DNA from: an uncultured Myxococcales bacterium | Lineage (GTDB): Bacteria; Myxococcota_A; UBA9042; DTJE01 | Assembly (NCBI GenBank): GCA_903936705.1 | Contig: CAIZWN010000005.1 | Location: forward strand, 311,883 to 375,882 | Direction of reading: 5' to 3' | DNA length: 64,000 nt | In this document: piece after piece, positions 48,652 through 58,599 of the stretch | Layout: every line of letters starts with the position of its first letter | Position numbering within the stretch: the stretch's first letter is position 1 | Notes under the pieces: model-generated | Databases searched by the model: none | Seen by the model: only the letters and a program-made list of their open reading frames with translations | Told to the model about the DNA's origin: nothing | Made by a program: the position numbers and the translations under genes

Positions 48652-48853
48652 CCCGGTATCGTAGGGCAGGACTGGTCGCAATGCCCAGCCGACGCCGCAA
48701 GCTACTGCCGCAGCCTGATTCCACAAGTCACTGATATTCGAGTTGTGCGAAACTCGCCAATTCCATAGAATCCTCACGGAATACTAGGTACCAGCGTCTT
48801 CAGATTGCTGGTCTCATGCGGGCACTTTTCCGGTTTTGGCCAAGGAGGTCCAG

Positions 48854-51800
48854 ATGCGGCTGCACGTCACCCTCAAGGCTTGCGTGATGTCCGCGTTGGC
48901 GGCAATGGCCATGTCTGGATGCGGGGGCGGCTCGTCATCCTCGCAGGACAATCAATTTGTAGGCGACCTGGGGCCGCTTCTGGATGGTGTCGATTCCAGC
49001 AATGACGGTTCGCTTGACACGATAGGGTCCGATGTCCCGATGGACGGCGAGGTGCCACTGGCACGGGACGCCATTCTGGATGGTCGGCAGGACGATACTG
49101 TGACGCCAGGCGACCACGGGGTCCGTCCGGACGGGTTCGTCGACGACGCTGAATCCGAACTACCACCTCCGCCGCGCTGTGTTCCGGGAACCTCGTGCGA
49201 CGATTTTGATCCGTGCACGATTGACGACATCTGCGATGACGACGAAACGTGTCTTGGAACCGTTGTCGAGGCCTGCGACGACGCCGTTGATTGCACCGAG
49301 GATTCCTGTTCCTCCATTGAGGAATGCTCCCACGTCATCATGCCGGGATGGTGCCTGGTCGAGGGGATTTGCTTCAAGGACGGCGCCTTCGACCCGCTGC
49401 GCCCATGCCTTTCGTGCGTGTCGGCGCTGGTCGTTGACGACCTGATCCCCGACGACAATCTCACGTGCGACGACGGCAACGGCTGCACATCCGGGGACCA
49501 CTGCAAGACCGGCGTCTGCGTCAGCTCCCCCAGGAACTGTGACGACCAGAAAGCCTGCACGATGGACGGTTGCGTGGCCGGCGAATGCACCTACACCTCC
49601 ATCCTGGGGCCTTGCGACGACGGGAACCTTTGCACCGAGAACGACGCCTGCGTGGAAGGTGAATGCGTGGGTGACAAGGTGGGCTGTTTCGACGGCAACC
49701 CGTGCACCCGCGACGACTGCGACCCGCAGATGGGATGCGTCCACCAGTTCAACACCGAACCGTGCGACGACGGGAACGTCTGCACGGTTGGCGACATATG
49801 CAGCCTGGGAGTCTGCCAGTCGGGTGTTGGTCGCCTGGACTGCAACGACAATGAACCGTGTACCGAAGACGGCTGCGTCCCCACGCGCCCGGTCGATGAC
49901 GCCTGCGTTCACATCCCGAACGTAGCCCCGTGCGACGACCTGGACCCGTGCACCGTCGGCGACGCCTGCCGCCTGGGTGGGTGCAGGCCGGGCATCGAGT
50001 CGCTGGCCTGCGATGACCTGAACCCGTGTACCGACGATTCCTGCAAGCCTGGCGTTGGCTGCATCTTCGTGAACAACAGCGCACCTTGTGACGATCTCGA
50101 GCCTTGCTTCCTTGACGATGTCTGCGTCGAGGGCTCCTGCAGTCCGGGCCCGAGGGAATTGTCCTGCGACGACAGCAACGAATGCACCGACGACTCTTGC
50201 CAGGTAGACTACGGGTGCGTCAATCGCCCGAACGACTACCCGTGCGACGACGGCAACGTCTGTACCGCCGGGGACACCTGCACCGCCGGCGTCTGCATCG
50301 GCATGAACCCGGACGGTGTCTGCAACGACGACGACGACTGCACGGGCGACTTCTGCACACCGGAAGGCGGATGCGGCCACAAGGCCCTTCCTGTGTGCCG
50401 CCCACAGATAATCATCGACTATCCACCGCGCGCAGCGACGTTGGCCCAGTACGACTATGCGATCGACACATCTACCGGCCAGCCTATGTTGGACAGGGAC
50501 GGACGGCCCAAATTGGCCGTTCGCGGACACATCGAATACCCGATAGCGAACAGCGGGATCAGGGTTACCGAGGTCAACATCAACGGACGAATCTGCCTGA
50601 TCAACCCGTCTGATCAAACCTTCGCCTGCAGGGCAGACGACGGTTCGACCATGGGCTTCTACCCGTACGGCACTTCACAGGGTTTCAACCCGATTGTCGC
50701 AAGCGCGGAAAGCCTTCCGATTTGCAACTCGGTGTCATGTTCGAACTCGGCCTGCAAACCGGCCGACTGCGATGTCATCAACGACATCTGCCTGGTCTGC
50801 AACACGTTTGCCGATCACGTAGTCCAGTCCTTCTACTACTCGACCGAATGGTACGACTTCTCGAACACCCCTCCGGCCCCTCCGCCCGACATTACGGACG
50901 GTCTGCAGATGTTCCTTGGCAAGGAGGTCTGGGACGACAACGACACATCGACCCCCGATGATATTGCGACCATCCTGACCCTGTACGTCCAAAGCATGGA
51001 CATCGGCAGTTTGATCCAGAACCCGGTTACGCGAGGATCGTTCGGATGGTGCAAGTACAAGGTCAATCTCAACCACATCCGCTTCGGCCAGATTGCGGTG
51101 GACCTGGTCCCGACCTATGGCGGCCTGGACTTCAGCGCTGCCATTCCGAATTTCAGAGTCGATATCGGCATCGATGTCAGCGGGTTCCTTTGCCCGTCCT
51201 TCAGTGGCAATGCGTCTGCATCGTCAATCACGATTGCCGCGACGGCACTGGTTTCGATGAACGGCCAGGGCGAACCACAGGCGTCCATCATCAACCCAGA
51301 TGTCGTCGTAAACGGCCTCAACGTCAGCATCGATGGCATCTGGGGCTTCCTGTTCAACTGGATCATCGACTTCTTCGAGAGCGACTTCGCCACCATGATC
51401 GAAACCCAGTTCGAAGCCACCATTGCCAATGACATAGGCACTGCCATCGCCGGCGCCATCAAGGGTCTTGCCATCGACCAGACATTCCAGTTGCCTGCGT
51501 TCCTTCCCGGTACCGATCCTCTTTCGCTGCGGATTGTGGCCAAGCCTTCGACCCTCGACTTCACCCCCGACGGTGCCGTGATTGGACTGAAGTCCACTAT
51601 TCTGACTCAACGCGGCATCGCCTATGAAAGTCTTGGTTCCATTGGCCGTGCCTCGTGCCTTGGCACCCAGGATCCGCCGCTGGTGATGCCCAAGACCCGG
51701 CCCCTGGCGATCGGCCTGCGCGACGACCTGTTCAACATGATTCCTTTCGCCCTGTACTGGGGCGGTGGCCTGCGGGTGCCGCTGGATCCTTCGCAGCTTG

Positions 51801-52327
51801 GCGGCGCAGCCGTTGATCTTAGTGCCTACGGCATCAGTGAACTGGTACTTATCATCGACTTCCTGCTGCCCCCGATATTGTCGTCATGCAACCAGACCAA
51901 GAAACTGATGCTGCAGGCAGGCGACGTGGGTATCAAGGCGACGATGAAGCTGTTCGGCACGCCGGTGGACATGCAGATGTACGCATCGCTGGACGCCGAG
52001 GCGAAGGTGTTCGTGCAGAAGGGCGTATCTGGCGGGAACGAACTGGCACTGGCCGTCAGCGAACCGGTTTTCATCGACATCGAGATTGCAAGCCTTCACG
52101 GCGGACTGGTAGGCGCCGAGGATTCGCTGGGCAAGCTGATCAAGGACACGGCACTTCCTCTGGTCCTGCAGGCACTGTCTGGCAACACGCTGGTATCGTT
52201 CCCGATCCCTGAAATCGATCTTCACGGAATTGCACCTCAATTGCCGGTTGGCAGCAAGATTGCTATTGATATTGAGGAACTTGTGCGCGTAAACGGGAAC
52301 ACCGTTGTCTCGGGACAGATCAAATAG
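48854..52327 (+). CDS. Giant Cys-repeat surface lipoprotein with TULIP-like C-terminus (copy 1)
   Basis: 1157 residues. Lipobox MSGC (Cys23) followed by Gly/Ser and an acidic linker (24-108). Residues about 109-515 hold about 14 units of the form CDDxNPCTxDxC, with a non-repeat insert (GWCLVEGICFKDG) after the second unit. From about 515 (CRPQIIIDYPPRAATL) an Ig-like segment precedes FYYSTEWYDF near 657. The final 500 residues alternate beta-rich stretches with an amphipathic helix and end in VSFPIPEIDLHGIAPQLP. By character this resembles lipid-binding TULIP/BPI folds (inference). The closest relative is the next gene. AAGGAGG before the ATG. Function unknown; expected outer-membrane surface. 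Confidence 0.88.
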   Translation: MRLHVTLKACVMSALAAMAMSGCGGGSSSSQDNQFVGDLGPLLDGVDSSNDGSLDTIGSDVPMDGEVPLARDAILDGRQDDTVTPGDHGVRPDGFVDDAESELPPPPRCVPGTSCDDFDPCTIDDICDDDETCLGTVVEACDDAVDCTEDSCSSIEECSHVIMPGWCLVEGICFKDGAFDPLRPCLSCVSALVVDDLIPDDNLTCDDGNGCTSGDHCKTGVCVSSPRNCDDQKACTMDGCVAGECTYTSILGPCDDGNLCTENDACVEGECVGDKVGCFDGNPCTRDDCDPQMGCVHQFNTEPCDDGNVCTVGDICSLGVCQSGVGRLDCNDNEPCTEDGCVPTRPVDDACVHIPNVAPCDDLDPCTVGDACRLGGCRPGIESLACDDLNPCTDDSCKPGVGCIFVNNSAPCDDLEPCFLDDVCVEGSCSPGPRELSCDDSNECTDDSCQVDYGCVNRPNDYPCDDGNVCTAGDTCTAGVCIGMNPDGVCNDDDDCTGDFCTPEGGCGHKALPVCRPQIIIDYPPRAATLAQYDYAIDTSTGQPMLDRDGRPKLAVRGHIEYPIANSGIRVTEVNINGRICLINPSDQTFACRADDGSTMGFYPYGTSQGFNPIVASAESLPICNSVSCSNSACKPADCDVINDICLVCNTFADHVVQSFYYSTEWYDFSNTPPAPPPDITDGLQMFLGKEVWDDNDTSTPDDIATILTLYVQSMDIGSLIQNPVTRGSFGWCKYKVNLNHIRFGQIAVDLVPTYGGLDFSAAIPNFRVDIGIDVSGFLCPSFSGNASASSITIAATALVSMNGQGEPQASIINPDVVVNGLNVSIDGIWGFLFNWIIDFFESDFATMIETQFEATIANDIGTAIAGAIKGLAIDQTFQLPAFLPGTDPLSLRIVAKPSTLDFTPDGAVIGLKSTILTQRGIAYESLGSIGRASCLGTQDPPLVMPKTRPLAIGLRDDLFNMIPFALYWGGGLRVPLDPSQLGGAAVDLSAYGISELVLIIDFLLPPILSSCNQTKKLMLQAGDVGIKATMKLFGTPVDMQMYASLDAEAKVFVQKGVSGGNELALAVSEPVFIDIEIASLHGGLVGAEDSLGKLIKDTALPLVLQALSGNTLVSFPIPEIDLHGIAPQLPVGSKIAIDIEELVRVNGNTVVSGQIK

Positions 52328-52355
52328 GGTTCGAGGTTTAGGGCACGCACGCTCT

Positions 52356-52361
52356 TATACT
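52356..52361 (+). promoter_or_regulatory. Possible -10 element before the second repeat lipoprotein
   Basis: TATACT lies 31 bases before the ATG in a 64-base gap; the -35 region is poor. It may give an internal promoter within the gene block. Confidence 0.25.
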
Positions 52362-52391
52362 GGCGGGCGGGTTCAACAAGGAGGAACCAGG

Positions 52392-55300
52392 ATGCGCACG
52401 GGCAGCATTTGGGGAAGCGTGGCGGGGCCGGTATTGCTGGGGTTGGTCGTGTTGTCGTGCGGCGGCGGCGGGGCTCCTGGTTTGGACAGTACGGGCCTGC
52501 CGGACGCCCAGACTGATCTTAAGGATGTCGCAGGTGGCGACTTGCAGACCGATGAAACCTTCCGCCCGGATGCAGGTGTCGATACGGTCGGCGAGACTTT
52601 CGTCGATGTCCCTGTCGATGATGTCATCCCGACCGATATTCCAGTTCAGATCGATACCGGTATCGACAGTCGACCTGCGGACGTTTCGGCTGAGGCAGGC
52701 GATACGCCAGTGCCTCCGGCATGCGTCGAGGGCGAAGGCTGCGACGACCACAACCCGTGCACCATCGACGACAAGTGCGTCGAGGAAACGTGCCAGGGCA
52801 CCCTGGTCGAGGCCTGCGACGACGGGTCCGACTGCACTGATGACGCTTGCACCTCGGGCACCGAGTGTTCCCACGAGATCAAGCCGGGATGGTGCCTGGT
52901 CGACTCGACCTGCTTCGAGGAAGGCGACGTCGATCCGACGAACGCGTGCATGGCCTGCGTCACCGCCGTGGCAAACGATCGCTTCCTGGCTGACGACTCG
53001 CTGCCATGCAGCGACGGCAGTGGCTGCACGAACCCCGACCGATGCGTCAGCGGCCAGTGCAAACCTGGTCCGGTCAATTGCAACGACGACAAGGAATGCA
53101 CGAAGGACGAGTGCGTCAACGACGAGTGCGTCTGGACGCCTCTATCCGGCACCGCATGCAGCGACAACGACTACTGCACGATCAACGACACGTGCAACGC
53201 CGGTGTTTGCACCGGTGCGCAGGTCGACTGCAACGACAACGAAGACTGCACCCAGGATTCGTGCGGCCCCGACGGGGTTTGCATCCACACGCCCAACAGC
53301 AACTCGTGCGATGACCTGAATGAGTGCACGGTCGGCGACCAGTGCGTCGATGGCAAATGCGCCCCGGGCAGCGACAAACTGGTTTGCAACGACTTCGACG
53401 TCTGCACCGACGACGGCTGCGTGCCCGACAAGGGCTGCGTGTACATTCCGAACAGGGCTCCATGCGACGATTCCGATCCATGCACGGTCGGCGACACCTG
53501 CCGCAAGGACTTGTGCGAGCCTGGTCTTCAGGAACTGGCCTGCCCTAACGATAACCCGTGTGCGGACAGCGTCTGCACGAAGGGCGTTGGGTGCGAGTAC
53601 CCGCCCAACAGCGCCCCCTGCGACGACAATGATCCCTGCACCCTGAACGACACCTGCGGCGGAGGAATCTGCCAGCACGGCACTGGGCAGCTGGATTGCG
53701 ACGACCACAATGACTGCACCACCGATTCATGCGTCGAAGGTACCGGGTGCCTGAACGAATACAACACGGCCCCTTGCGACGACAACAACGTCTGCACGCA
53801 CGACGACGTCTGCCAGGGCGACGGCGTCTGCAAAGGCGCACTTTTGGCGGACGAATGCGACGACGGCAGGCAGTGCACCACGGATACGTGCGATCCGGTC
53901 GACGGCTGCTTGAACAAGGTTCAGAATCGCCCCGAGTGCCGCCCCCAGATCGTGATCGAATTCCCGCCGCGCGGCGCTACCCTGGATGAAACCTCGGTCA
54001 CGGTCGGGACTTCCAGGACCATAACTGTTAGCGGTCGCGTGGACACGGGCGTGGACGGCTGGCAGGTGCGCGAGTTCTCGATCAATGGCGTGCTCGTGGC
54101 ACCCAGCCCTCTGGACAGGACCTTCACCTTCGACATCGTGTCGAACCTGGGATTCAACCCGATTGTGGTCGATGCCACCGACGAGATGGGGCTGAAGGAC
54201 CACCTAGTGCAGTCGTACTATTACTCGACCAAGTGGTACCCGATATCCTGGGTACCCAAGGGCGACCCTGTGCCCGCGGCCTCGATGGTCGACCAGGGCC
54301 TGCAGATGTTCCTGGGCCCGAAGGCGTGGGACGATGGCAGCAGGGCGGATCCGGTCAACGACATCGCCGATATTGTGCAACGCTACCTGAAGGGAATGCA
54401 GTTCGCGGTGAATCCGAATGCTCCGATTTCCCAGATTAGCGAGCTTGGTTGCGATTACGACATATACCTACAAAGCGTCGAGTTTGATCGCAACAACATT
54501 GGAGCTGTCATCCAGCCCGTGGAGGGCGGCCTGCATCTTGCGGCTTCCTTGAGTTCCGTCGTTGTGGTCGTCCCCGTCGTCAAGACGGGCGGATTTCTTT
54601 GCCCTGGCAATTTCGTAGCGACCGTCAAGGTCACATCGGTGACCCTCGATACGACCATGTTGATCTCGGTCGATTCGGCAGGCAACGTCACAGTGACTCC
54701 AACCGGAACTGTAGTGAACATGTCCGATCCGACGATCAACACCACCAACCTAATTGCAACGTTGCTGTTGAACCTGATGAAAGGCACTCTGACGACGATG
54801 CTGAAGGACCAACTGGCCGCGCAGGTGAACACCCTGGGAACCACGCTGGCCGATGCTCTGCAGGGCCTTGCCATAAATACGGACTTCACCATCGGGGCGT
54901 TCGTCAGCGGGGCGCCCGACACCACACTTGGCATGCGATCCGGGTTGGAAACCATCGAATGCCACCCGACCGGATGCCTGATGGGGATGAAGGCCGCAAT
55001 CGTGTCCCAGAATGCACAGACGCTGCACCCCGTGCTTGGCTCGATTGGGCGCGCTGCCTGTCTTGCCGCGATCCCCGAGCCCCTGCCCACCTACCCGGCG
55101 GGCACATCGGTTCCGCCGGCGCCTGTTCCGTCCATCGAACTTGGGCTGCACGACGACTTCTTCAACCAGATCCTGTACGGCTTGTTCAACAACGGCGCTC
55201 TGACTTTCGACGTTCCGCCCTCGATGCTGTCGGGAGTCGACCTGACACAATACGGCATCACGGACCTGACGTTGTCGATCGACATGTGGCTGGCTCCGAT

Positions 55301-55748
55301 CTTGTCGGCGTGCAACAGCAGCGAAGCGCTGCATATCCAGATTGGTGACCTTGGAATCCACGCGGTCATGAAGCTGATGGGGACGCCTGTCGACATGGAC
55401 ATTTTCACATCGGTCGAGGCAGACGCTGCGCTGGCAACGCTGGACACGCCGACCGGCAAGGAACTGTCGGTCAGCATCGGCGCCCCGACGTTCCTGGATG
55501 TCGAGATTTCCAGGCTAGATGGAGGACTGGTCGGCGCCGAGGAATCGCTGCGCAATATGATCAAGACCCAGTTGATCCCGCAGCTTCTTTCTTCGCTGAC
55601 CGGCACTACCCTGGGTTCGTTCCCGATCCCGTCGATCGACTTGTCAGGTATGCTTCCTGGCCTGCCGCCCGGGACCAGCATCAGCGTCGATATCCAGCAA
55701 GTACTGCGGTCCCATGCGTACGATATCGTATCCGGTTGGGTGAAGTGA
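52392..55748 (+). CDS. Giant Cys-repeat surface lipoprotein with TULIP-like C-terminus (copy 2)
   Basis: 1118 residues, same architecture as the preceding gene: lipobox VLSC (Cys23), Gly4, a longer acidic linker (about 28-108), about 14 CDDxxPCTxxDxC units from 110 to 515 with the same insert (GWCLVDSTCFEEG) at the same place. The Ig-like segment begins CRPQIVIEFPPRGATL, then SYYYSTKWYP near 605 and the 500-residue C-terminal region ending GSFPIPSIDLSGMLPGLP. The two copies differ widely in residues but keep every landmark, so this is an old duplication. GGAGG before the ATG. Function unknown. Confidence 0.88.
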   Translation: MRTGSIWGSVAGPVLLGLVVLSCGGGGAPGLDSTGLPDAQTDLKDVAGGDLQTDETFRPDAGVDTVGETFVDVPVDDVIPTDIPVQIDTGIDSRPADVSAEAGDTPVPPACVEGEGCDDHNPCTIDDKCVEETCQGTLVEACDDGSDCTDDACTSGTECSHEIKPGWCLVDSTCFEEGDVDPTNACMACVTAVANDRFLADDSLPCSDGSGCTNPDRCVSGQCKPGPVNCNDDKECTKDECVNDECVWTPLSGTACSDNDYCTINDTCNAGVCTGAQVDCNDNEDCTQDSCGPDGVCIHTPNSNSCDDLNECTVGDQCVDGKCAPGSDKLVCNDFDVCTDDGCVPDKGCVYIPNRAPCDDSDPCTVGDTCRKDLCEPGLQELACPNDNPCADSVCTKGVGCEYPPNSAPCDDNDPCTLNDTCGGGICQHGTGQLDCDDHNDCTTDSCVEGTGCLNEYNTAPCDDNNVCTHDDVCQGDGVCKGALLADECDDGRQCTTDTCDPVDGCLNKVQNRPECRPQIVIEFPPRGATLDETSVTVGTSRTITVSGRVDTGVDGWQVREFSINGVLVAPSPLDRTFTFDIVSNLGFNPIVVDATDEMGLKDHLVQSYYYSTKWYPISWVPKGDPVPAASMVDQGLQMFLGPKAWDDGSRADPVNDIADIVQRYLKGMQFAVNPNAPISQISELGCDYDIYLQSVEFDRNNIGAVIQPVEGGLHLAASLSSVVVVVPVVKTGGFLCPGNFVATVKVTSVTLDTTMLISVDSAGNVTVTPTGTVVNMSDPTINTTNLIATLLLNLMKGTLTTMLKDQLAAQVNTLGTTLADALQGLAINTDFTIGAFVSGAPDTTLGMRSGLETIECHPTGCLMGMKAAIVSQNAQTLHPVLGSIGRAACLAAIPEPLPTYPAGTSVPPAPVPSIELGLHDDFFNQILYGLFNNGALTFDVPPSMLSGVDLTQYGITDLTLSIDMWLAPILSACNSSEALHIQIGDLGIHAVMKLMGTPVDMDIFTSVEADAALATLDTPTGKELSVSIGAPTFLDVEISRLDGGLVGAEESLRNMIKTQLIPQLLSSLTGTTLGSFPIPSIDLSGMLPGLPPGTSISVDIQQVLRSHAYDIVSGWVK

Positions 55749-55803: not shown

Positions 55804-58077
55804 ATGCTACGTCTGATGATTTCGGTCGTGACTTTGTCGGCGGCAATGGTCCTGGTTGGCTGCGGAGGCGGATCGAACAACACGTCTTCCGACAATGGAC
55901 CTGGAACAGACCAGGGCGCTGAACTTGCGGACGTCCTGATTGGGGATGTCGAGTCGGAGACGGGTCGAGACACCGTATCGAACGACTCCGCAGACCAGGG
56001 CATCGATACTGCTGGTGACGGCACGACGATCCCGGATGGCGATGACGACACCAAGCCCGCCGACGTGACTGGCGATTTTTCTGCCGTGGACGCCGGTACG
56101 GACGTACAGCACAACGACGTGGCCGCCGGGGATGCGCTGCCGGACGTCAGCACACCATGCCTGGAAGGCGACCCGTGCGATGACGGCAATGCATGCAGCT
56201 ACGGCGAGAAGTGCAGCGCAGCCGGCCAGTGCGTCGGAGGAACGACGTATGCGTGCGACGATGGTCGCGTTTGCACTACCGACACCTGCGACGGCAAGGG
56301 CAACTGTCTGTACGTGGTGAAGTCGGACGCCTGCCTGGTAAACGGCGTCTGCCGCACATCGGGCGAGACGGATCCTGAAAACACCTGCATGGGCTGCGAC
56401 CCGGGGACCGACCAGGGTGCCTTCGTCCAGGCAAACGACAGCGCCGACTGCGATCCTTCGGCCAGCCTTCCCAAGTGCAAGATATCGCTGGGAGGTACCT
56501 GTACGGCGGGCGTGTGCGTGACCGGTCCGACCGGCGACAACCCTTGTGATGACAAGAACACGTGCACCCAGGATTCCTGCGATCTCGAAACCGGTTTGTG
56601 CGTTCACCTGGGTTCGACAGGCCAGCCGTGCGTCCTCGAGGACCGCTGCAAGGCAGGCACATGCAACCAGGGGCGCTGCATCATCCCCGTCGACGCCTCG
56701 TGCGACGACGACAATCCCTGCACGCGGGATTCCTGCGACCCGGCCAACGGATGCCTTCACGAGAATCAGTCGGACGTATCCTGTGACGACAACAACGCCT
56801 GCACTGTCGATGACACCTGCTTTGCCGGTTCCTGCCAGGGCATGGTGCTGAATTGCGACGACGGCAACATCTGTACCCTGGACGGCTGCAACGCCATTAC
56901 GGCGTGCTGGCACGACGTCGCCAGCAACCCTTGTTGCGAGGGTGGCGTCAGCAAGTGTGATGACAACAACCCATGCACGAACGACGACTGTACTGCCGAC
57001 GGTTTGGGGTGCATCAACACGGCCAACACGGCGGCATGCAACGACGGTAATCCATGCACACTCAACGATTCATGCCTGGACAAGTTCTGTTCTGGCGTCG
57101 AGAAGAACTGCAACGACGGCAACTCGTGCACGCTGGACAAGTGCGAGGCCGGCAAGTGCATCCACACGCCCCTTAATGCGGTCCCCTGCGATGACGGACG
57201 CGATTGTTCGACTGGGGATCAGTGCACACTGGGCCAGTGCGTCGCCGACACCACGCTGTGCGACGTCTGCACCTACACGTTCTTCCCCACGGCCGACAAG
57301 TTGGTGGCGATGACGATTTCGCCGGACGGTCTGACCGGCGCGACACCTGCGGACCTGAACCATGGATTGAACCTGGACGATAACGCCAGCACCTGTGCGC
57401 CATCATCCAGTTGCTGCTGCGGGATCGACAACTCGCTTGGTATGGTGGCAGGCCTCCAGATTGCCACGGATGCGATCACCAAGGCGATCGTTGATGGCGA
57501 CCTGATCATGCTGTTCGAGCATCGCGGTCTGCGGACCGATGGCGGGCCGTACACACTTGCGTTCTATACCGGCAAACTTGATCCGGCCAACGCCGCCTGT
57601 GACTACCAGAATTCAGATTGCCAGTACTTTGTGTCCGAGGCCGTCTTTGCCGACTGGCCGAAGTGCAACCCGCTGGTCAGCCTGGACAACGCCAAGATCG
57701 TCGGCAACCGGCTGACGGCCGGCGGCAAGTCCTACAAGTTCCCGTTCGACCTTCCCTTGGCTGGAATCCCTCTGCACGTCGATCTCTACAACACGAAGGT
57801 CGACGCCACTGTTGAAGTTACAGGCGGCAAGATCACGCGCATGAGGGGCATTCTGGGCGGCGCGATCCCGAAGCAGCAGATCATTGATGCCATAAACGCC
57901 ATTGATCCGTGGACGATCACCCAAATCGACAAGGAGACCGTACTGGCACTGATTGGCGAAGGCGATGACGGGCTGGTTTATCCAGACCTTGACGCCGACG
58001 GCGACGGCGTGCGCGAATCGGCGTCCATCGGCATCCAGTTCGACTCGATCGACAGCACGATCACGGGCGTCTTCTGA
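55804..58077 (+). CDS. Cys-repeat lipoprotein with the conserved C-terminal domain of the 22 kb gene
   Basis: 757 residues. Lipobox LVGC (Cys20), Gly-Gly-Gly, then an acidic linker to about 118 with DxxDxG-like phrases. About 10 canonical CDDGNPCTxDxC units and several irregular Cys modules run to about 485. The C-terminal 270 residues lack the TULIP-like region of the two preceding proteins. They instead match the end of the 22026-23561 product: ITKAIVDGDLIMLFEH and MRGILGGAIPKQQIIDAI align with that protein's LNDAVAGGDIAIMLEL and LSGVLTKEQLVAAV stretches. GGGAGG before the ATG, 55 bases after the preceding gene. Confidence 0.86.
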   Translation: MLRLMISVVTLSAAMVLVGCGGGSNNTSSDNGPGTDQGAELADVLIGDVESETGRDTVSNDSADQGIDTAGDGTTIPDGDDDTKPADVTGDFSAVDAGTDVQHNDVAAGDALPDVSTPCLEGDPCDDGNACSYGEKCSAAGQCVGGTTYACDDGRVCTTDTCDGKGNCLYVVKSDACLVNGVCRTSGETDPENTCMGCDPGTDQGAFVQANDSADCDPSASLPKCKISLGGTCTAGVCVTGPTGDNPCDDKNTCTQDSCDLETGLCVHLGSTGQPCVLEDRCKAGTCNQGRCIIPVDASCDDDNPCTRDSCDPANGCLHENQSDVSCDDNNACTVDDTCFAGSCQGMVLNCDDGNICTLDGCNAITACWHDVASNPCCEGGVSKCDDNNPCTNDDCTADGLGCINTANTAACNDGNPCTLNDSCLDKFCSGVEKNCNDGNSCTLDKCEAGKCIHTPLNAVPCDDGRDCSTGDQCTLGQCVADTTLCDVCTYTFFPTADKLVAMTISPDGLTGATPADLNHGLNLDDNASTCAPSSSCCCGIDNSLGMVAGLQIATDAITKAIVDGDLIMLFEHRGLRTDGGPYTLAFYTGKLDPANAACDYQNSDCQYFVSEAVFADWPKCNPLVSLDNAKIVGNRLTAGGKSYKFPFDLPLAGIPLHVDLYNTKVDATVEVTGGKITRMRGILGGAIPKQQIIDAINAIDPWTITQIDKETVLALIGEGDDGLVYPDLDADGDGVRESASIGIQFDSIDSTITGVF

Positions 58078-58152: not shown

Positions 58153-58599
58153 ATGCCGAAATCTTCCGTCTTCAAACGGTGCGGCAACTGGCTGACGGTT
58201 CTTTCCGGATGCGCGCTGACCATTGGCGTCGTTCTGCTGCAGCCCGCCCTGGCTGAGGCCGGGTCCAACATCCGAAAGGACGGGTCCATCGTTGCCGAGA
58301 TCGACGGGCGCTATCTGCGGCAGCGCGGGTCGATCGTGGCGGAATTCGACGGGGACAACGTGCGAAGATCAGGATCGATCGTGCTGACCTTCGACGGGCG
58401 TTACGTACGCGAACGGGGGTCAATTATCGCCGAGATCGACGGTCGCAACATCAGGCGCAAGGGGTCGATCGAGTGGCAGATAGATGGGAACGGCAACGTG
58501 CGTCGGCACGGTTCGATATCCTACTCTGTGGACGGATACACGGACAGCGAATCCATGAAACGCAAAATCGTGACGTTCCTGCTGCTGTTCGCCGAGTAG
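58153..58599 (+). CDS. Exported protein of six 15-residue repeats
   Basis: 148 residues. Signal peptide ending PALAEAG, cleaved near 36. Residues 40-129 are six units of consensus (V/I)RRxGSIxAEIDGRx, lengths 15,15,15,15,16,14, for example LRQRGSIVAEFDGDN. The alternating pattern with fixed Gly, Ile and Asp-Gly turns suggests a small beta-solenoid or beta-flower fold. A short tail with a hydrophobic end (KRKIVTFLLLFAE) could associate with membrane. GGAGG nine bases before the ATG, 75 bases after the Cys-repeat gene, same direction, so possibly the last gene of that block. Function unknown. Confidence 0.8.
   Translation: MPKSSVFKRCGNWLTVLSGCALTIGVVLLQPALAEAGSNIRKDGSIVAEIDGRYLRQRGSIVAEFDGDNVRRSGSIVLTFDGRYVRERGSIIAEIDGRNIRRKGSIEWQIDGNGNVRRHGSISYSVDGYTDSESMKRKIVTFLLLFAE

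Follow-up and report, generated by a model that had tools for sequence, protein, structure and literature searches.

Giant paired lipoproteins of an uncultured Myxococcales bacterium carry a predicted LBP/BPI-type TULIP module on Cys-repeat stalks

Two adjacent genes, A and B, lying in a window of 64,000 nucleotides (the whole stretch of DNA that was analysed) from an uncultured Myxococcales bacterium, encode giant lipoproteins that join a lipobox, an acidic tether, a stalk of Cys repeats and an Ig-like segment to a large C-terminal module. A TULIP fold for this module, with homology to the animal proteins LBP and BPI, is well supported by profile searches and by a predicted structure. With slightly better than even confidence, A and B are read here as outer-membrane lipoproteins whose stalk-held head carries lipid, most likely capturing it at the cell surface. 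The usual view of BPI-type proteins is of an animal means to deal with bacterial lipids, and to our knowledge the sequence match between them and previously known bacterial TULIPs is only weak; here a large bacterial family, which no sampled genome of its class lacks, is tied directly to LBP/BPI by sequence profiles. The same two-lobed fold with which animals capture lipids of bacteria would be displayed on stalks in organisms seemingly without LPS, which opens to test both how LPS-free outer membranes get and arrange their lipids and the origin of the animal BPI/LBP fold. No description of the architecture and envelope context of these stalked TULIPs was found in the literature searched.

The two genes are followed by two further co-directional genes, C and D, and the gaps A-B, B-C and C-D measure 64, 55 and 75 bases. 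The features of the cluster are as follows.

48842..48849, plus strand: Shine-Dalgarno sequence of gene A, aaggaggt, read directly
48854..52327, plus strand: gene A, 1157-aa lipoprotein with lipobox, acidic tether, Cys-repeat stalk, Ig-like domain and predicted two-domain BPI-type TULIP module
48911..48922, plus strand: lipobox of gene A, MSGC, with lipidated Cys23 and Gly at +2, read directly
49178..50398, plus strand: Cys-repeat stalk of gene A, residues 109-515
50393..50842, plus strand: Ig-like domain of gene A, Glucodextran_B/Big_7 type
50891..51604, plus strand: predicted N-terminal TULIP domain of gene A, approximately residues 680-917, the section with the LBP/BPI sequence match
51605..52324, plus strand: linker and predicted C-terminal TULIP domain of gene A, residues 918-1157, with Cys935, Cys1012 and FPIPEIDL inside
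52392..55748, plus strand: gene B, 1118 aa, a paralogue that repeats the architecture of A
52449..52460, plus strand: lipobox of gene B, VLSC, with Gly at +2, read directly
52722..53939, plus strand: Cys-repeat stalk of gene B, residues 111-516
53934..54245, plus strand: Ig-like domain of gene B, end approximate
54297..55745, plus strand: predicted two-domain TULIP region of gene B
55804..58077, plus strand: gene C, 757-aa lipoprotein with tether and Cys stalk like those of A and B and an unrelated C-terminal domain
57268..58074, plus strand: C-terminal domain of gene C, no known family, low-confidence model
58153..58599, plus strand: gene D, for a small exported protein in which an RxGSI unit recurs

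The initial annotation, made from the sequence, had described two adjacent paralogues of these lengths sharing a lipobox, an acidic linker, about 14 Cys units, an Ig-like segment and a C-terminus of roughly 500 residues. This account stands throughout: coordinates and lengths are exact, and the proteins are 39% identical in an end-to-end alignment. A strong Shine-Dalgarno sequence, aaggagga, also precedes gene B at 52378. A strict pattern counts 13 Cys units in one stalk and 14 in the other, all at regular spacing, about 14 each overall, and the Pfam family that scores on them is Dicty_CTDC (1.4e-10 in A, under the cut-off in B); in A as in B, stalk and tether together span about 500 residues. 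The Ig-like segment is recognised by Pfam as Glucodextran_B in 18 and as Big_7 in 13 of 26 family members. As expected of outer-membrane lipoproteins, no Asp stands at +2 after the lipobox Cys of A, B or C (MSGC-G, VLSC-G and LVGC-G). The region contains no RNA families or tRNAs, promoter and terminator scans of it stayed at or under chance level, and a tblastn search against plasmids gave no match.

The relation to LBP and BPI was established with a profile built from an alignment of 26 C-terminal modules, namely those of A and B and 24 from public genomes. In a PDB search this profile singled out LBP (4m4d, E 2e-13) and BPI (1bp1/1ewf, E 4e-8) with no other noteworthy match, and a further, weak stretch of similarity runs collinear to the C-terminal lobe; gene A as a single sequence found no PDB match, so that LBP and BPI emerge by the alignment profile only. 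The Pfam family of these animal proteins, PF01273, likewise gave a sub-threshold score for gene A alone (E 0.005, 17-18.8 bits against a curated cut-off of 28.8) and no match for gene B, while matching 20 of the 26 modules. Additionally, a genome search with PF01273, separate from the 26-module alignment, matched in 26 of 29 relatives, nine of these 29 past the curated cut-off, and in none of 14 control genomes. No model dedicated to the stalked family was found in Pfam or NCBIfam.

The predicted structure agrees with the profiles. An AlphaFold2 model of the module (pLDDT 82, pTM 0.76) ranked BPI first in a Foldseek search of the PDB (2.7e-20, probability 1.00), followed by CETP (4e-18) and LBP (1e-17), with OrfX3/P47 (about 1e-8), SPLUNC1 (about 1e-4) and YceB (about 2e-2) lower down. 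The alignment to BPI 1ewf spans both domains over about 516 columns with a target TM of 0.64, and two TULIP domains and a linker are accordingly predicted in one chain, as is characteristic of the LBP/BPI/CETP family. The predicted fold is that of the TULIP superfamily, a superhelical beta sheet coiled about a long helix. The BPI/LBP-type TULIP module that the initial annotation had proposed is thereby supported at the level of profile and predicted fold, and no confident unrelated fold emerged. These two lines of support share one alignment. The predicted strands alternate hydrophobic and polar residues at 1.88 against 1.18 in shuffled sequences, a sequence proxy for a lipid-binding cavity that only 3 of 2000 shuffles reach, and this is what sheets with one greasy face should show. 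Other expectations fared less well: the FPIPxIDL motif is present as FPIPEIDL/FPIPSIDL, but with tens of residues still to follow, and the helix presumed to be amphipathic and to follow a LAID/LAIN phrase instead precedes LAID in the model (module residues 322-357) and has no simple hydrophobic moment. A sequence relation between the N- and C-lobes within the module is unconvincing (hhalign, best probability 10%).

The module belongs to an expanded family. It occurs in 36 of the 36 nearest genomes searched, and 134 of 286 genomes sampled across the phylum match it with E values no higher than 1e-10, the window's class contributing 43 of 43; matches outside the class weaker than about E 1e-80 may in some cases rest mainly on the Ig-like domain. 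Genomes of this Myxococcota class usually hold 3 or more copies, and the window's own genome holds five intact copies and fragments of one more. These fragments (G000:C35:44035-45221), one of them with an internal TGA, are probably a decayed copy. The Ig-stalk copy on contig 51 (L003 3031-4446) adjoins a convergent gene that by eye resembles one for a caspase-like peptidase of C25 type. Two stalk types, Cys repeats or Ig repeats, exist in the family, and the Cys type is a single change on a quick module tree made without bootstrap; the existence of two alternative extended stalks suggests selection for reach. In the same tree the orthologues of A and those of B from other genomes form two separately supported clades, which places the pairing of A and B beyond chance and indicates that the tandem pair predates the genera carrying it. 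Tandem pairs of TULIP lipoproteins that are shorter and divergent also exist beyond the class, in complete genomes (L089, L090, L091 and L092). A FIST-domain gene lies near the pair at L089, and a homologue of that gene is present at L090.

Among the Cys-stalk loci with enough downstream sequence, one of them in another class, a gene of the C type lies directly 3' of the Cys-stalk TULIP gene or tandem pair in 17 of 17 distinct loci (L011 and L102 are the same locus and were counted once); the flanks retrieved for members with Ig stalks showed none. This kept gene order suggests that the TULIP proteins and C work as a pair or complex. The C-terminal domain of C is conserved, and fold, Pfam, NCBIfam and PDB searches with it, the first from a weak model, returned nothing significant. 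Gene D, beta-flower-like (Bflower_3) under the Pfam cut-off, is well conserved, comes next in line in relatives and probably closes the cluster. At L093 5367-14070 of genome G108, which belongs to a different class, a TonB-dependent receptor and a cytochrome-D1-like protein are followed on one strand by a Cys-stalk TULIP gene with its partner of the C type. The TonB-dependent receptor was not used as a partner, a crude motif scan being blank at all loci, even this one.

The envelope of the host bears on what such proteins might do. Its genome, 96% complete, encodes Omp85 and has no detectable LpxC or LptD, and the organism is therefore probably an LPS-free diderm; LpxC is absent from 42 of the 43 sampled genomes of the class. 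Strong module matches occur in 53 genomes of the phylum sample, and 51 of these lack LpxC, against 89 of 233 others, a figure uncorrected for relatedness in which 42 of the 51 come from the window's class and the strength cut-off favours the window's relatives; among genomes with weaker matches LpxC is present in 48 of 81. The association between module and LpxC absence is a lead, confounded by shared ancestry. As evidence for LPS binding it was held back, on account of the uncorrected relatedness and of a strength cut-off tied to nearness to the window's class. We take the Bradymonabacteria to belong to the same phylum as the window's lineage. These predators are reported to be without FabB/F and FabI and capable of acquiring external fatty acids (PMC7460792).

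In the favoured reading, the lipid anchor, the acidic tether and the rigid disulfide-rich stalk would hold the BPI/LBP-type head off the membrane with the Ig-like segment as a collar, each TULIP lobe would most likely take lipid acyl chains into a hydrophobic groove, and the head would pass lipid to or from the outer membrane. Lipid would most likely be captured at the cell surface, jointly with the Cys-stalk lipoprotein C. This reading draws on the LBP/BPI profile matches, the PF01273 counts, the model with its Foldseek ranking and the strand alternation; it further draws on the lipobox with its +2 Gly, the acidic tether, the two alternative stalks and the presence in 43 of 43 class genomes, and on Omp85 without LpxC or LptD in the own genome together with fatty-acid gathering in Bradymonabacteria (PMC7460792). 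The location assigned to A and B depends on signs in the sequence. Counting against this reading are the helix without a simple moment, the unconvincing sequence relation between the lobes and the lack of a transporter or lipid enzyme consistently adjacent in the window's family.

Alternatively, the stalk may reach through the periplasm, from the outer towards the inner membrane, with the head delivering phospholipid, or some other lipid, to the outer membrane in place of LPS export. Such a shuttle would suit a genome with Omp85 and neither LpxC nor LptD, the strong matches in LpxC-less genomes (51/53) and the length of stalk and tether in A and B, about 500 residues against a linker of 20-25 aa in DUF4403 proteins (PMC6791001). 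However, the acidic tether and adhesin-like stalks fit the surface better, weaker matches are widespread in LpxC-positive genomes (48/81) and the LpxC link may come from shared ancestry; we regard this alternative as rather unlikely.

The nearest relatives in sequence and fold being LBP and BPI, the head could instead bind LPS or lipids of other bacteria, for recognition or extraction from a prey envelope; an owner without LPS would not be bound by its own receptor, LpxC is mostly missing in the lineage, and the related Bradymonabacteria are predatory (PMC7460792). Set against this, every module is acidic, with a net charge of -3 to -82, the loop aligned to the lysine-rich LPS loop of BPI carries 0-3 K/R across the 26 members, so that the cationic loop is absent, and no predation genes were seen adjoining the TULIP genes. 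Acidic modules and no basic loop describe a protein of BPI fold for which electrostatic LPS binding in the manner of BPI is unsupported, and a receptor for foreign LPS is judged improbable. The wider picture, in which LPS-free diderms extract foreign envelope lipids with stalked LBP-like heads as a bacterial counterpart of animal LPS sensors, possibly from the same ancestor, has an equally low standing. Least probable is that the TULIP scaffold has become an adhesin or structural surface spike without lipid binding, as Ig and Cys stalks typical of adhesins and the weak helix moment might suggest, since the strands keep their hydrophobic alternation, and two Cys residues as well as other positions show no variation across the 26 members, diverse as these are.

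Those two residues, Cys935 and Cys1012 in gene A numbering, are probably a disulfide pair of the family's own. The N-domain disulfide of BPI joins Cys135 and Cys175; the modules have no equivalent, their conserved Cys columns lying elsewhere, at module positions 220, 267, 422 and 499. The PROSITE signature of the LBP/BPI/CETP family, PS00400, in the form used here, matches none of the modules.

Among known bacterial systems, TraA of myxobacteria, whose Cys-rich repeat stalk has been proposed to display a binding head on the cell surface (PMC3325183), offers a works-like comparison only, with no homology shown: it has a PA14 head, a MYXO-CTERM anchor and a different Cys-repeat family (TIGR04201). 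The clostridial P47/OrfX proteins and YceB share the TULIP fold by Foldseek, whereas their fold match is weaker than that of BPI, CETP and LBP, they have no sequence match and their architecture is different. DUF4403 (PF14356) proteins are bacterial pseudo-dimeric TULIPs with two domains, often outer-membrane lipoproteins, and resemble the present family in these respects, but their linker is short, where stalks of hundreds of residues occur here (PMC6791001). Membership in DUF4403 was rejected (hhalign probability 2%; best of 26 modules E 0.0082), and PF14356 is absent from the own genome and from 18 of 19 relatives. By the searches made here, the stalked family is nearer to animal BPI/LBP than to the other bacterial TULIPs compared. 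With animal LBP, BPI and CETP (PF01273) it shares the predicted two-domain TULIP fold with a linker and similarity at the level of sequence profiles; unlike theirs, its modules are bacterial, acidic, lipid-anchored and carried on giant stalks.
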